Assembly (NCBI RefSeq): GCF_025642155.1
Contig: NZ_CP106798.1
Location: 2,728,001-2,792,000 of the forward strand
Direction of reading: 5' to 3'
Source of the DNA: Streptomyces sp. HUAS 15-9
GTDB taxonomy: Bacteria; Actinomycetota; Actinomycetes; Streptomycetales; Streptomycetaceae
Length of the DNA: 64,000 nt
The notes below the pieces were generated by a model. The model did not search any database and was not told where the DNA came from. It saw only the letters and a list, made by a program, of their open reading frames with translations. Made by a program: the position numbers and the translations under genes. The stretch's first letter is position 1. Each line of letters starts with the position of its first letter. This document shows positions 10,600 to 38,417 of this stretch, one piece after another.

Positions 10600-11125
10600 G
10601 GCGTGGGGCGGGTGGGCCGGGGTGGCCCGGGGGCCGGGGCCCGGGGGGCCGGAAGCCCGATGCCCGGGTGGCCCTGTGCCCGGTGGCCCGAAGGCCCGGT
10701 GGCCCGGGCCCGAAGACTGGGGGCTGGAGGCTGGAGGCCGGGGCCCGGAGGCCCGGGGGGTGGGGGCTGGGGCCTGGTGGCCCGAAGGCCGGAGGCCGGG
10801 GGCTGGAGGCCGGGGGCTGGAGGCCGGGGCCCGGAGGCCCGGAGGCCCGGAGGCCCGGAGGCCGGAGGCTGGAGGCCGGGGGCTGGAGGCCGGAGGCCGG
10901 GGCCCGGAGGCCGGGGGCTGGAGGCCGGAGGCCGGGGGCTGGAGGCTGGAGGCTGGAGGCCCGGAGGCCCGGAGGCCCGGAGGCCCGGAGGCCGGGGGCA
11001 CCGGAGGCTGGAGGCCGGAGGCCGGGGGCCGGGGGCACCGGAGGCCGGAGGCCGGAGGCCGGGGGCCGGAGGCCGGGGGCCGGAGGCCGGGGGCCGGAGG
11101 CCGGGGGCCGGGGCCCGGGGGGCCA
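10600..11125. repeat. GC-rich minisatellite of GGAGGCC / GGGGGCT units
   Basis: About 520 bp fill almost the whole gap between the EI24 gene and the MarR gene. The plus strand is built from 6-8 bp units (GGAGGCC, CGGAGGCC, GGGGGCT) in higher-order combinations such as CGGGGGCTGGAGGC. All reading frames stay open because the unit lacks stops, but the translations are pure Gly/Pro/Arg low complexity and are not real proteins. One strand carries dense G-runs. Confidence 0.95.
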
Positions 11126-11137
11126 GGAGGACGGGGT

Positions 11138-33666: not shown

Positions 33667-34892
33667 CCCCACTGGCGCTCGACCCCTCGCACATCCTCGG
33701 CGAGTTCTACATCTCCTTCTGGATCCCGACCGCGGTGCTGACCGCCGCCCTGGTCATCAAGCTGCCCACGATCTTCCGGCTGTGGCGGGACCCGCTGCTG
33801 CGCGCGGTGGGCGGGCTGCTCCTGCTCGCCTGCGCGGTGTTCGTGTTCGTGACGCCGTCGACGATCGCCTGGACCAACCGGGTCACCGGCGTACCCAACA
33901 TCTCGGCGCCCTGGTGCTACTCGCTGATCACCGCCTTCTGCGGCTCCTGTCTGCTGCTCATCATCGCCTGGCGCAACGGCCTGTCCGACCGCTCCGCCAC
34001 CACGCGCCGCGCGATGCGCTGGGTCATCTGCGTCTACTCCGGCGTGATCGTCACGCTGTGGGTGCTGTTCGCGCTCGCCGACGCCCCCGTGGAACGGCTG
34101 CGGGACCTGGACACGTACTACGCCAACACGCCGTTCATGCGCGAGGAGATCCTGCTCTACCTCGTCGCCCACGCCGCGGCCTGTCTGATCACGTCCAAGC
34201 TGATCTGGAACTGGGCCCGCACCGACGGCCTCGACGCCTGGCTGCGCTGGGGACTGCGGCTGCTGGGCATCGGCTATGTGCTGAACCTGGTCTTCGACAG
34301 CTCCAAGCTCGTCGCCGTCACCGTCCGCTGGACAGGGCGGAACCAGGACTGGCTGAGCACCGACCTGGCGCCGCCGGTGGCCGCGCTGTCCGCCATCCTG
34401 ATCGCGGTCGGCTTCATCCTCCCGCACGCCGGCCAGTATCTGCACGACCGCTGGCGGGTCCGCCTCGCCCACCGCGAACTGCGCCCCCTGTACCAGCTGA
34501 TGCGGACGGTGAACGGCGACGGCGTGCCCCTGGTGCTGCGCGCCACCGCCGAACTGCGGCTGACCCGGCGCGAGACGTTCATCCGCGATGTACTGCTGCA
34601 GCTGGCCCGGTACATCGACACGGACCTGAGCAAGCGGTCGTACGACGCCGCGCTCGCCCTCGGGCACCCCCCGCACAGGGCGAAGGCGCTGGCCGCCGCG
34701 GTGGGCATCCTGGACGCCGTCGACAACAGGAGCCGTACGCCCGAGGCTCCCCAGACGGCCGCCGGGCCCGACACGACCAACCTGCTCCAGGAGATCGGGG
34801 CCGTCTCCCGAGCCCTCCGCCACCCCGATGACATCGCGGCCGTACGCGCGTATGCGGCCACCCCAGCAGAGAGCGTTCCCGTACATGAGTGA
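33663..34892 (+). CDS. MAB_1171c-type multi-spanning membrane protein
   Basis: The 409-residue protein has about seven membrane helices in the first 260 residues (FWIPTAVLTAALVI, VGGLLLLACAVFVFV, ICVYSGVIVTLWVLFALAD, LLYLVAHAAACLI). A cytoplasmic domain of about 150 residues follows, containing HRELRPLYQLMRTVN and LTRRETFIRDVLLQLARYI. This matches proteins called MAB_1171c family putative transporters; transport has not been shown as far as I know, and a receptor role is equally plausible. The GTG start overlaps the peptidase stop, and its own stop overlaps the oxidoreductase start by 8 bp, so the three proteins are coupled. Confidence 0.78.
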   Translation: MTPLALDPSHILGEFYISFWIPTAVLTAALVIKLPTIFRLWRDPLLRAVGGLLLLACAVFVFVTPSTIAWTNRVTGVPNISAPWCYSLITAFCGSCLLLIIAWRNGLSDRSATTRRAMRWVICVYSGVIVTLWVLFALADAPVERLRDLDTYYANTPFMREEILLYLVAHAAACLITSKLIWNWARTDGLDAWLRWGLRLLGIGYVLNLVFDSSKLVAVTVRWTGRNQDWLSTDLAPPVAALSAILIAVGFILPHAGQYLHDRWRVRLAHRELRPLYQLMRTVNGDGVPLVLRATAELRLTRRETFIRDVLLQLARYIDTDLSKRSYDAALALGHPPHRAKALAAAVGILDAVDNRSRTPEAPQTAAGPDTTNLLQEIGAVSRALRHPDDIAAVRAYAATPAESVPVHE

Positions 34893-36282
34893 TCCCGGAG
34901 CAACCGCCGTCGTCCTCGGCGGCTCCCTGGCCGGCCTGCTCGCGGCCCGCGCCCTGGCCCCCTTCGCCGACCGTGTCGTCGTGGTCGAACGGGACGTGCT
35001 GCCGGCCGTGCCGAAGCCGCGCAAGGGGCTGCCGCAGGCCCGGCACGTGCACCAGTTCTGGTCGGGCGGGGCGCGCGCGCTGGAGCAGCTGGTCCCCGGT
35101 GTCGTCGATCGGCTGCGGGCGGCCGGGGCCAGGCGACTGCCGGTGACGACCGACATGGTCGCGCTGTCTCCGTACGGCTGGTACCGGCGTTGGGCCGAGT
35201 CGGCGTTCATGCTGACCAGCAGCCGGGACCTGCTCGACTGGATCGTCCGGGCGCAGATCCTGGCCGACGAGCGGATCGAGCTCGTGTCAGGGACCGAGGT
35301 GCTCGGGCTGGTGGGCACGGACGCGGCCGTCACCGGTGTCCGCGTACGCGGGCACGACGACGCCGAGCGCACGCTGACGGCCGGCCTGGTGGTCGACGCC
35401 ACGGGGCGCGGCTCCCGCACGCCCCGGTGGCTGGCCTCGCTCGGGCTGCCCGCGGCGGAGCGGCGCGAGGTCAACTCCGGGATCGCGTACGCGAGTCGGC
35501 TGTTCCGGGCGCCGGACCAGGCCCGGGACGGGTTCCCCATCGTCAACATCCAGCCCGATCTTCCACAGGTTGGGCGGCCCGGGGGCGGTGGCGTCCTGAT
35601 GCCCGTCGAGGACGGACGGTGGATGGTCACCCTCTACGGCAGCCGGGGCGTCGAACCGGCCGCCGGCGAGGCCGACTTCGCCCGGTACGCCCGGGAGGAG
35701 CTGCGCCATCCGGTCATCGCCGACCTGATCGCGAACGCGGAGCCGATCGGCGAGGTGTCGTGCACACGGACGACGGCCAACCGCCGGCACTACTTCGAGC
35801 GGATGCCCGCCTGGCCGGAGAACTTCGTGGTGCTGGGGGACGCGGTGTGCGCGCTGAACCCGGTGTACGGGCACGGGATGTCGGTGGCCGCCCAAGGGGC
35901 GCTCGCCCTGAGGGAAGTGGTCCGGCGTCAGGGCTGGGGTTCGCCCGGTCTCTCGCGGCAGATCCAGAAGGCGGTGAGCCGGCCGGTCAGGGCCGCGTGG
36001 GACCTGGCGATCGGCGCGGACGTCTTCTATCCCGGGGCGACGGAGGGCGGGCCCACGCTCAAGGAGCGGCTGACGGCGGCGTACGTCGGACGCCTGCTGT
36101 ACACCGCGACCGGCAACGGCCGCATAGCCCGCCGCGTCACCGACGTGACGTCCCTGCAAAGGGGCGCGGAGGTGCTGCTCGCCCCCGACGCACTCCTGGC
36201 CGCAGCGATCGGCCCGCTCAAGCCGCGGCTGAGCGGGCCGCCGCTGACCGCCGAGGAGCGGAAGGCGGGCGGGCTGCTGTGA
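34885..36282 (+). CDS. FAD-dependent oxidoreductase (monooxygenase-like)
   Basis: This 465-residue flavoprotein of the p-hydroxybenzoate hydroxylase/geranylgeranyl reductase fold has FAD-binding VVLGGSLAGLLAARALAPF, VVVERD, LVVDATGRGSRTPRWL and NFVVLGDAVCALNPVYGHGMS (the GD motif near residue 315). The substrate is unknown; in similar triads it may modify a lipid or terpene-like molecule, which is inference. The C-terminal sequence TAEERKAGGLL is also encoded, in altered form, in each of three 169-bp tandem repeats immediately downstream. Confidence 0.85.
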   Translation: MSDPGATAVVLGGSLAGLLAARALAPFADRVVVVERDVLPAVPKPRKGLPQARHVHQFWSGGARALEQLVPGVVDRLRAAGARRLPVTTDMVALSPYGWYRRWAESAFMLTSSRDLLDWIVRAQILADERIELVSGTEVLGLVGTDAAVTGVRVRGHDDAERTLTAGLVVDATGRGSRTPRWLASLGLPAAERREVNSGIAYASRLFRAPDQARDGFPIVNIQPDLPQVGRPGGGGVLMPVEDGRWMVTLYGSRGVEPAAGEADFARYAREELRHPVIADLIANAEPIGEVSCTRTTANRRHYFERMPAWPENFVVLGDAVCALNPVYGHGMSVAAQGALALREVVRRQGWGSPGLSRQIQKAVSRPVRAAWDLAIGADVFYPGATEGGPTLKERLTAAYVGRLLYTATGNGRIARRVTDVTSLQRGAEVLLAPDALLAAAIGPLKPRLSGPPLTAEERKAGGLL

Positions 36283-36789
36283 GTCCGGGGGCGGTCAGCC
36301 CGCGAACGCCGGCTGGGGCAGGCCCTTGCCTGCTCCCGGGACCACCGTGACGTCCCTGCAGCGGGGCGCCGAGGTGCTCCAGGCCGCGGCGACCGGCCCG
36401 CTCAAGCCGCCGCTGACCGCCGAGGAGCGGAAGGCGGGCGGGCTGCTGTGAGTCCGGGGGCGGTCAGCCCGCGAACGCCGGCTGGGGCAGGCCCTTGCCT
36501 GCTCCCGGGACCACCGTGACGTCCCTGCAGCGGGGCGCCGAGGTGCTCCAGGCCGCGGCGACCGGCCCGCTCAAGCCGCCGCTGACCGCCGAGGAGCGGA
36601 AGGCGGGCGGGCTGCTGTGAACCCCGGCCCGGTCAGCCCGCGAACGCCGGCTGCGGCGGGCCCTTGCCTGCTCCCGGGACCACCGTGACGTCCCTGCAGC
36701 GGGGCGCCGAGGTGCTCCAGGCCGCGGCGACCGGCCCGCTCAAGCCGCCGCTGACCGCCGAGGAGCGGAAGGCGGGCGGGCTGCTGTGA
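36283..36789. repeat. Three 169-bp tandem repeats of a convergent gene junction
   Basis: Copies are 36283-36451, 36452-36620 and 36621-36789, exactly 169 bp each. Every copy contains the last ~17 codons of the SMP-30 gene (minus strand, VVPGAGKGLPQPAFAG plus stop) and a shortened version of the FAD-gene 3' end (plus strand, ending TAEERKAGGLL plus stop). Copies 1 and 2 share GAGTCCGGGGGCGG after the stop, while copy 3 and the flank have AACCCCGGCCCGG. The array fills the whole 519-bp gap; I see no other gene in it. Confidence 0.95.
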
Positions 36790-36801
36790 ACCCCGGCCCG
36801 G

Positions 36802-37647
36802 TCAGCCCGCGAACGCCGGCTGGGGCAGGCCCTTGCCTGCTCCCGGGACCACCAGGAGCGACCCGGCCACCGGGTGCGGTGCCGTCAGTCCCACCCGGGC
36901 CGTGGTGATGTAGAGGTCCGTCAGGTCCGGGCCCCCGAAGGCGCACGCCGTCACCCGTGGGGTCGGCAGTTCGATCACGCGGTCCAGCTCGCCGTCCGGG
37001 GTGTACCGGCGCACCGCGCCGCCGTCCCACAGAGCCACCCACACACAGCCGTCGGCGTCGACCGTCAGCCCGTCGGGGAAGCCCGCGCCGTCCTCGATGT
37101 GCGCCAGTCGGCGCCGGTCCACGGCCCGTCCGTCCTCGTGGCGGAAGACGTCGACCTGCCGCGTCGGCGAGTCGACGTAGTACATCAGTCGGCCGTCGGG
37201 GCTCCACCCGGTGCCGTTGCTCACCGTGACGTCGTCGAGCACCGTCCGGGCCGAGCCGTCGCCGGTGATCCGGCAGAGCGTGCCGCCCCCGGGCGCCTCG
37301 TCGTAGCGCATCGTGCCCGCCCACAGCGAGCCGTCCGGGGCGACGGCGGCGTCGTTCGCGCGGCGGCCGGGGACGGGCTCGTTACGCAGCCAGCGGAACG
37401 TGCCGTCCGGGTCGAGGAGGCCCACGCCGTCCCTGAGGTTCAGGACCAGGCCGCCGCCCGCCCTGGGCTTGGCGGCGCCGACGTGCTGGTGCGTCGTGCG
37501 GACCGTACGGCGGCCGGTCGACGGGTCGTAGGTGTGCACCCGCGAGCCCAGGACGTCCACCCAGAGCAGCCGGCCCGCCGCCGGATCCCAGGTCGGACCC
37601 TCGCCGAGCGTCGCGTGCGCGGCCACCGCCACCTCGTACGCCGTCAT
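36802..37647 (-). CDS. SMP-30/gluconolactonase family lactonase
   Basis: This 281-residue six-bladed beta-propeller lactonase probably hydrolyses a sugar lactone to the sugar acid dehydrated by the enzyme at 16440. Metal-ligand motifs are LGEGPTWDPAAGRLLWVD (Glu), GRRANDAAVAPDGSLWAG (Asn/Asp) and VSNGTGWSPDGRLMYYVD (Asn), followed by FPDGLTVDADGCVWVAL. The ATG overlaps the IclR stop by ATGA, so regulator and lactonase form one transcript. The 3' end has been tandemly copied downstream. Confidence 0.88.
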   Translation of the reverse strand: MTAYEVAVAAHATLGEGPTWDPAAGRLLWVDVLGSRVHTYDPSTGRRTVRTTHQHVGAAKPRAGGGLVLNLRDGVGLLDPDGTFRWLRNEPVPGRRANDAAVAPDGSLWAGTMRYDEAPGGGTLCRITGDGSARTVLDDVTVSNGTGWSPDGRLMYYVDSPTRQVDVFRHEDGRAVDRRRLAHIEDGAGFPDGLTVDADGCVWVALWDGGAVRRYTPDGELDRVIELPTPRVTACAFGGPDLTDLYITTARVGLTAPHPVAGSLLVVPGAGKGLPQPAFAG

Positions 37648-38417
37648 GCCGCGCCCCGGTGGCCGAGGCGCTCCGACAGCTCGGCCGCGCCCTTGGCGGC
37701 GAGCTGCTCCAGCTCACCGCGGCGCTCCTCGCTCCAGCGGATCATGGGAACGGAGATGGACAGGGCCGCGACCACCTGGCCCGTACGGTCACGCACCGGC
37801 GCCGCCACGCAGCTCACGTCCGGGTTGGACTCGCGGCTCTCGACCGCGATGCCGCGCTGCCGGATCTCCGCCAGGGCCTCGCGCAGGACGCCCGGGTCGG
37901 TGATGCTGTTGGGGGTCATCGCGGCCAGCTCGGCGCCGTCCGGGATGCGCGAGGCCAGCTCCGGCTCGGGCAGGGAGGCCAGCAGCATCTTGCCGACCGA
38001 GGTGCAGTGGGCGGGCAGCCGGCGGCCGGCCGCCGACACCATGCGCACCGCGTGCGTGGAGTCGACCTTGGCGATGTAGATGACGTCGGTGCCCTCGAGG
38101 ATCGCCACATGGACCGTCTCGTCGCAGGTCTCGGCGACGGACCGGGCCACCTGCTGGCCCTCGGCGGCGAGGTCGAGCTGCTCGGCGTAGCGGCTGCCGA
38201 GCTGGTACGGGCGCACACCGAGCCGGTACCGTCCGGGCTGGCCCGGTACGGGCACGATGTACGACCGGGCGGCGAGCGTGGTGACCAGTTCGTGCACGGT
38301 GGTGCGCGGCAGCTGTAGCTTGCGCACGATGTCGGGGGCGGAGAGCGTCCCGTCCCCGTCGAGGAAGAGCTCAAGAATGTCGAGAGCCCGGGTCACGGCA
38401 GGTACGAGGCGTCCCAC
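37644..38417 (-). CDS. IclR family transcriptional regulator of the sugar region
   Basis: This 257-residue regulator has an N-terminal winged helix (AVTRALDILELFLDGDGTLSAPDIVRKLQLPRTTVHELVTTLAAR split over ~6-48) and a GAF-like effector domain (ETVHVAILEGTDVIYIAKVDS, LPAHCTSVGKMLLASL, DVSCVAAPVRDRTGQVVAALSISVP). It starts with GTG after GGGAGGGGG. Its promoter overlaps a copy of the 16-bp motif that also lies at the dehydratase, U32/transporter and GH51 genes. It is probably an autoregulated repressor released by a sugar acid or lactone. The ligand is inferred, not seen. Confidence 0.9.
   Translation of the reverse strand: MGRLVPAVTRALDILELFLDGDGTLSAPDIVRKLQLPRTTVHELVTTLAARSYIVPVPGQPGRYRLGVRPYQLGSRYAEQLDLAAEGQQVARSVAETCDETVHVAILEGTDVIYIAKVDSTHAVRMVSAAGRRLPAHCTSVGKMLLASLPEPELASRIPDGAELAAMTPNSITDPGVLREALAEIRQRGIAVESRESNPDVSCVAAPVRDRTGQVVAALSISVPMIRWSEERRGELEQLAAKGAAELSERLGHRGAA

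Follow-up and report, generated by a model that had tools for sequence, protein, structure and literature searches.

A 169-bp tandem array carrying the ends of two convergent genes in a Streptomyces chromosome

The gene junction described here belongs to a Streptomyces genome of 9,604,367 bases, which is assembled into 3 contigs, one of them 9.26 Mb long, and is listed as 100% complete. Unless a locus is named, coordinates refer to the window, i.e. the whole stretch of 64,000 nucleotides that was analysed. An FAD-dependent oxidoreductase gene occupies 34828-36282 on the plus strand, and its product (P0001) scores above the cut-off for both PF01494 and PF12831. The database copy of this protein has 465 aa, which is 19 aa below the length of the open reading frame in the window. 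Facing it on the minus strand is an SMP-30/gluconolactonase/LRE-like gene (36802-37647; PF08450, 276 bits), hereafter the lactonase gene, which is adjoined by a gene for an IclR-family regulator (37644-38417, minus strand; PF01614 and PF09339). The name Streptomyces is carried by 41 of the 45 named loci encoding a relative of the FAD protein.

The stop codons of the two convergent genes are separated by 519 nt, filled by three 169-bp units, after which comes the 12-nt spacer of a partial fourth. This 169-bp tandem array is far beyond chance. Tandem Repeats Finder places it at 36237-36853 with a period of 169, 3.7 head-to-tail copies, 97% matches, 0% indels and a score of 1150, the highest among its 26 entries for the window, the copy number being that of one genome of the species. 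A direct-repeat search likewise gives spacings of 169 and 169. The triple 169-bp tandem duplication claimed in the earlier note is real. Each unit comprises a 12-nt spacer, a 52-nt lactonase tail and a 105-nt FAD tail. Unit 1 (36283-36451) thus consists of the spacer at 36283-36294, the lactonase tail at 36295-36346 (minus strand) and a truncated FAD tail at 36347-36451 (plus strand). Unit 2 (36452-36620) is identical to it, unit 3 (36621-36789) differs at 7 positions, and the partial fourth unit (36790-36853, 64 nt) is formed by the 12-nt spacer and the end of the lactonase gene itself. Both gene ends occur in every copy, as had been claimed: the lactonase part contains, on the minus strand, the stop, 16 codons and one base, and the FAD part contains, on the plus strand, 34 codons and the stop, reading VTSLQRGAEVLQAAATGPLKPPLTAEERKAGGLL-stop. 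The unit length of 169 is not divisible by 3, so that no reading frame extends across the whole array. It is not a tandem duplication of a whole gene, as the unit holds only 34 FAD and 16 lactonase codons, each set with its stop.

The 7 positions that set unit 3 apart from units 1 and 2 fall into two groups. Five lie in the spacer and are common to unit 3 and the lactonase-side flank, and two lie in the lactonase tail and are private to unit 3. Over its 64 positions, the flank itself has 5 mismatches to units 1 and 2, and 2 to unit 3. The suggestion that copy 3 and the flank differ together from the other copies is therefore right for the spacer, beside which unit 3 has its two private changes. 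A dispersed element of the REP or MIRU type was not found, as all 5 own-genome matches listed, from a search that scored 40 out of its 236 first-look candidates, are the array, its partial copy or the living tail. Additionally, a mobile element was considered and rejected, with no plasmid match in a distant mode search and no further copy among the own-genome matches listed.

The repeated FAD tail has its counterpart in the last 45 codons and stop of the living FAD gene (36145-36282, plus strand). The three repeated tails are identical to each other and lack 18 and 15 nt (6 and 5 codons) of the living tail. In the alignment, the last 42 nt are free of substitutions and the 63 nt upstream of them contain 6; identity reaches exactly 46 nt back from the stop (36237-36282). 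All 6 mismatches lie within the 5' 48 of the 105 aligned nt, for which the probability under random placement, calculated post hoc, is 0.0076. Both deletions are multiples of three, and the reading frame stays open to the stop. An FAD part that is shorter and different and yet keeps the same peptide ending, as had been described, is accordingly what the alignment contains.

Codon usage in 67 relatives' tails, which were not deduplicated, bears on the direction of these changes. The CAA of the living gene occurs in 0 of 67 and the CAG of the repeat in 6; the living AGG occurs in 0 of 67 and the repeat's CGG in 42; the living GCA occurs in 6 of 67 and the repeat's GCG in 47. At the CAA/CAG position most relatives have Glu, not Gln. 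Judged by these counts, the living-gene codons CAA, AGG and GCA look derived, by synonymous change, relative to CAG, CGG and GCG of the repeat. The repeat has changes of its own besides the two deletions, namely a synonymous GCG to GCC and the nonsynonymous CTG to CAG and ATC to ACC, the placement of CTG to CAG varying with the alignment of the first deletion.

The ancestry of the short tail was followed in relatives of the FAD protein, for which 1693 hits were obtained from the 8000 candidates sharing most words, and the best 120 were examined. From the aspartate of the TDVTSL motif to the C-terminus, the 120 listed proteins (the window's own included) have 44 to 47 residues, and the repeated tail would give 35. 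The same distance is 44 to 51 residues in 65 of 68 unique junctions; of the other three, L007 and L055 are without the search motif and have full-length tails, and L068 is masked. As the living tails of the relatives are full length, both in the listed proteins and at the readable junctions, the short tail is a derived form. The nearest relative of the FAD protein, P0002 from Streptomyces sp. NPDC086549 (84% identity), likewise has a full-length tail. Over 63 aligned positions, the repeated tail has 6 differences from the living gene and 9 from the nearest of the other species sampled, which fits the decay of the lineage's own duplicated tail. The short ending is absent from all 119 other relatives listed, and the repeated FAD tail is therefore best taken as a relic, now decaying, of the gene end that this lineage itself possesses. 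The earlier note had proposed expansion from a homologous junction; this proposal is not supported, given the lack of the short tail in those 119 relatives and in the 66 other readable junctions, and given that the repeated tail is less distant from the living gene than from every species sampled (at least 9/63). The divergence of the 5' part, 6 of 48 nt, is close to that found between species, which counts against the relic reading, and therefore the repeated tail must be old or foreign. A foreign short-tailed donor was sought and not found among the best 120 of the 1693 hits.

Among the genomes covered, the array was seen only in its own. Of the 392 genomes in a same-genus draw, with the own genome among them, 33 gave a match with an E-value of 1e-20 or lower; outside the own genome, no match extended past query position 208 of 482, where the first lactonase tail ends. 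In a draw of 100 genomes (60 of them other same-genus genomes) the unit was covered only in the own genome; the other matches were short and partial, involving the lactonase tail or GC-rich parts of the FAD tail, and were not counted. Moreover, no published account of this junction was found in a literature search. A different duplication is present at the same junction in L035 (Streptomyces sp. HD), where 117 bp of FAD tail and spacer occur twice with 96% identity. It resembles the array in involving the same convergent pair and in duplicating the FAD tail, stop and spacer, but differs in its 117-bp unit, its two copies, its other break points and its lack of a lactonase tail; it is an independent event. 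Loci L009 and L038, whose tail peptide is nearly that of L035, have a plain 84-nt spacer.

These observations are best explained, with a probability of about 0.75, by a lineage-specific, probably neutral, minisatellite-like array that arose through tandem duplication, decay and homogenisation. The units are joined as ...GGGACCACC|GTGACGTCC..., and the parents of this join are the lactonase-side ...GGGACCACC|AGGAGCG... and the gene-side ...CACCGAC|GTGACGTCC.... By inspection, about 1 base is common at the break here and about 2 in the L035 duplication. Measured from the break point in the living gene, its counterpart in unit 1 lies 202 nt away, which equals the length of a present-day unit with the 33 deleted nt added. 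The join itself is observed; the event behind it would have been an illegitimate first duplication of ~202 nt, in which the lactonase tail (after ...GGGACCACC) was joined to the FAD gene at a point 45 codons before the living stop. Such a duplication would have placed a further copy of both gene ends, not translated, in the space between the two genes. The spare FAD tail would then have lost 18 and 15 nt and gained substitutions, and the living FAD gene, to go by the codons of its relatives, would meanwhile have undergone synonymous change. Unequal recombination or slippage between the long direct repeats may subsequently have produced three units and made the copies alike; this would also have involved the last 46 nt of the living gene, as the end of the first repeat. 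The repeated tails are identical although no frame runs through the array, as is expected of recent amplification, and repeat turnover accounts for the identical parts. Expansion and homogenisation, which had been suggested before, fit both the unit differences and the tail alignment. Furthermore, the living FAD and lactonase genes keep the same ends as in their relatives, so that no effect on either protein is expected, and the array is probably neutral.

The main fact against decay of an own tail is that both deletions are in frame. This fact would fit a history in which the short tail had been the former working end of the FAD gene, the array having formed from it before a full-length allele from another strain was swapped in by a crossover ~46 nt before the stop. 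The tail, open to its stop, could then be a once-working gene end, and the sharp boundary 46 nt before the stop, with differences only on its 5' side, would mark the crossover. The repeat also keeps CAG and CGG, which occur in relatives, and the living CAA and AGG do not. Against such a replacement stand the 0 of 119 other listed relatives with a short tail, the repeat's own changes, among them L to Q and I to T, and the closeness of the repeated tail to the living gene rather than to any sampled species. On this evidence allele replacement is considered rather improbable.

A bidirectional terminator or insulator array, selected to separate the two converging transcription units, is very unlikely. 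The spacer and lactonase tail do fold into two small GC hairpins, and a 61-nt plus-strand stretch at the lactonase-side flank, the strongest of seven folded stretches, reaches a z of -2.07. However, a consensus scan returned 0 terminator-like sites in 36100-37000, and in RNA folding against shuffles the 138 nt of units 1 and 2 gave z of -0.38 to -0.60 and the other 61-nt stretches -0.99 to -1.18. The best local plus-strand energies, -36.4 for the array and -34.4 for the first junction, compare with a median of -35.75 in 66 relatives. The 66 lactonase tails fold no better than after synonymous codon resampling (mean z +0.36, against +0.69 and -0.41 for control blocks). A perfect hairpin of at least 8 bp lies at the stop in 6 of 66 lactonase tails, that of the window not being among them; L068, whose junction holds N, was left out of the hairpin, resampling and direct-repeat counts. 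Neither a stem with a U-tract nor stems stronger than expected, the marks of an intrinsic terminator, were thus found in the array, which is also absent from the other 66 junctions, and the earlier idea of a terminator array finds no backing in scan, folding, hairpin energies or resampling. Published work on Streptomyces (PMC8269248) describes transcript ends that have a stem-loop and lack a U-rich tract, and therefore the sequence alone is not decisive against termination at the array. That the assembly gives a wrong copy number is scarcely credible, for although unit 2 does not differ from unit 1, private variants are present both in unit 3 and in the repeated tail, which a spurious duplication would not have introduced, and the array is below 0.7 kb in an assembly of the contiguity and completeness given above.

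Long-period arrays are not rare in these genomes, being present in all four same-genus genomes sampled. Forty 20-kb stretches of the own genome, 800 kb in all, contained 14 arrays with a period of at least 60, 8 of them mostly intergenic; per 400 kb, G049 has 5 (0 mostly intergenic), G040 has 3 (2) and G364 has 9 (5). An unusually repeat-prone host genome was also considered, and is unsupported by these counts. In 44 relatives' loci (410,732 bases) together with the window, 4 arrays with a period of at least 40 and a length of at least 80 bases were found: that of the window, that of L035 at the junction, and two elsewhere. Several other repeats were observed along the way. At 10616-11136 of the window, Tandem Repeats Finder reports a degenerate GC-rich array of more than 50 copies of 7-bp units (GGCCGGA/GGCCCGG). 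A 63/126-bp repeat family (GCACGCCGGG...TGCGGCCGGTGGG) forms two arrays at each of two distant places of the own chromosome (L151, 8558-8846 and 10517-10782; L170, 2338-2658 and 2898-3193), apparently in opposite orientations. The own genome also contains a 694-bp tandem duplication (L160, 15999-17391) of 2.0 copies with 99% matches, mostly coding according to a crude gene caller.

Bacterial VNTR or minisatellite loci consist of head-to-tail, intergenic, near-identical units with private variants, and work on Yersinia pestis VNTRs is reportedly an example. The array is like them in all these respects, and unlike them in that its unit contains two gene ends; the copy number of such loci varies between strains, and the array is known from one strain. 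It is also like spontaneous bacterial tandem duplications in being joined at a new junction. In published work on such duplications (PMC3411829), short microhomologies were removed by filtering and 22 junctions with microhomology > 10 bp were confirmed, whereas the join in the array has about 1 common base. Overall, the array looks less like a switch or a terminator than like an ordinary non-coding tandem duplication, specific to its lineage, in which the copies decay and are homogenised.

The junction had also been proposed as a recombination hot spot, and this proposal was compared with other convergent junctions. The FAD/lactonase pair gave 67 usable unique junctions, after omission of loci in which only one of the two genes was found. 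An intergenic direct repeat of at least 40 nt is present in 7 of the 67, or in 6 of 66 without the window, and in 5 of 296 other convergent junctions from four genomes (Fisher p 0.006 against 6/66). The two sets differ, the first covering many species by tblastn coordinates and the second four genomes by a crude codon-based gene caller; because of this unlike sampling and the non-independence of the species, the excess is a lead, no more. Intergenic direct repeats occur at the same junction in L014, L039, L040, L115 and L137 as well, L071 and L116 having the same repeat and tail as L014. Duplicated gene ends, on the other hand, are found in 1 of 66 FAD/lactonase junctions and 2 of 296 controls (p 0.45). 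The proposal keeps a modest statistical lead from the direct repeats. It is conceivable, though doubtful, that the FAD/SMP-30 junction is a recurrent tandem-duplication hot spot of Streptomyces, perhaps through head-on transcription, at which arrays formed by each lineage from its own gene ends or spacer preserve older gene ends in decaying form, open to exchange with the living one.

Other structures were noted at this and other convergent junctions. A recurring intergenic motif like GGTCGCGCAGTTCCCCGCGCCCCTGGGG has variants at the junctions of L040, L014/L071, L042, L043, L047, L049 and L060, and in several species it is followed by its inverted repeat. In L050 (Streptomyces sp. SA15), an imperfect palindrome of 267 columns and 75% identity extends across the whole FAD/lactonase spacer. 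Between other convergent genes, a perfect 46-nt duplicated gene end lies at L191 15140-15326 (G049), and a decayed 126-nt one at L227 11561-11860 (G364).

If the hot spot is real, the junction would be a natural place to measure the rates of tandem duplication under head-on transcription. The array may serve as a strain-typing marker. Especially, it provides a clean example of gene ends that were copied between convergent genes and then decayed or were evened out.
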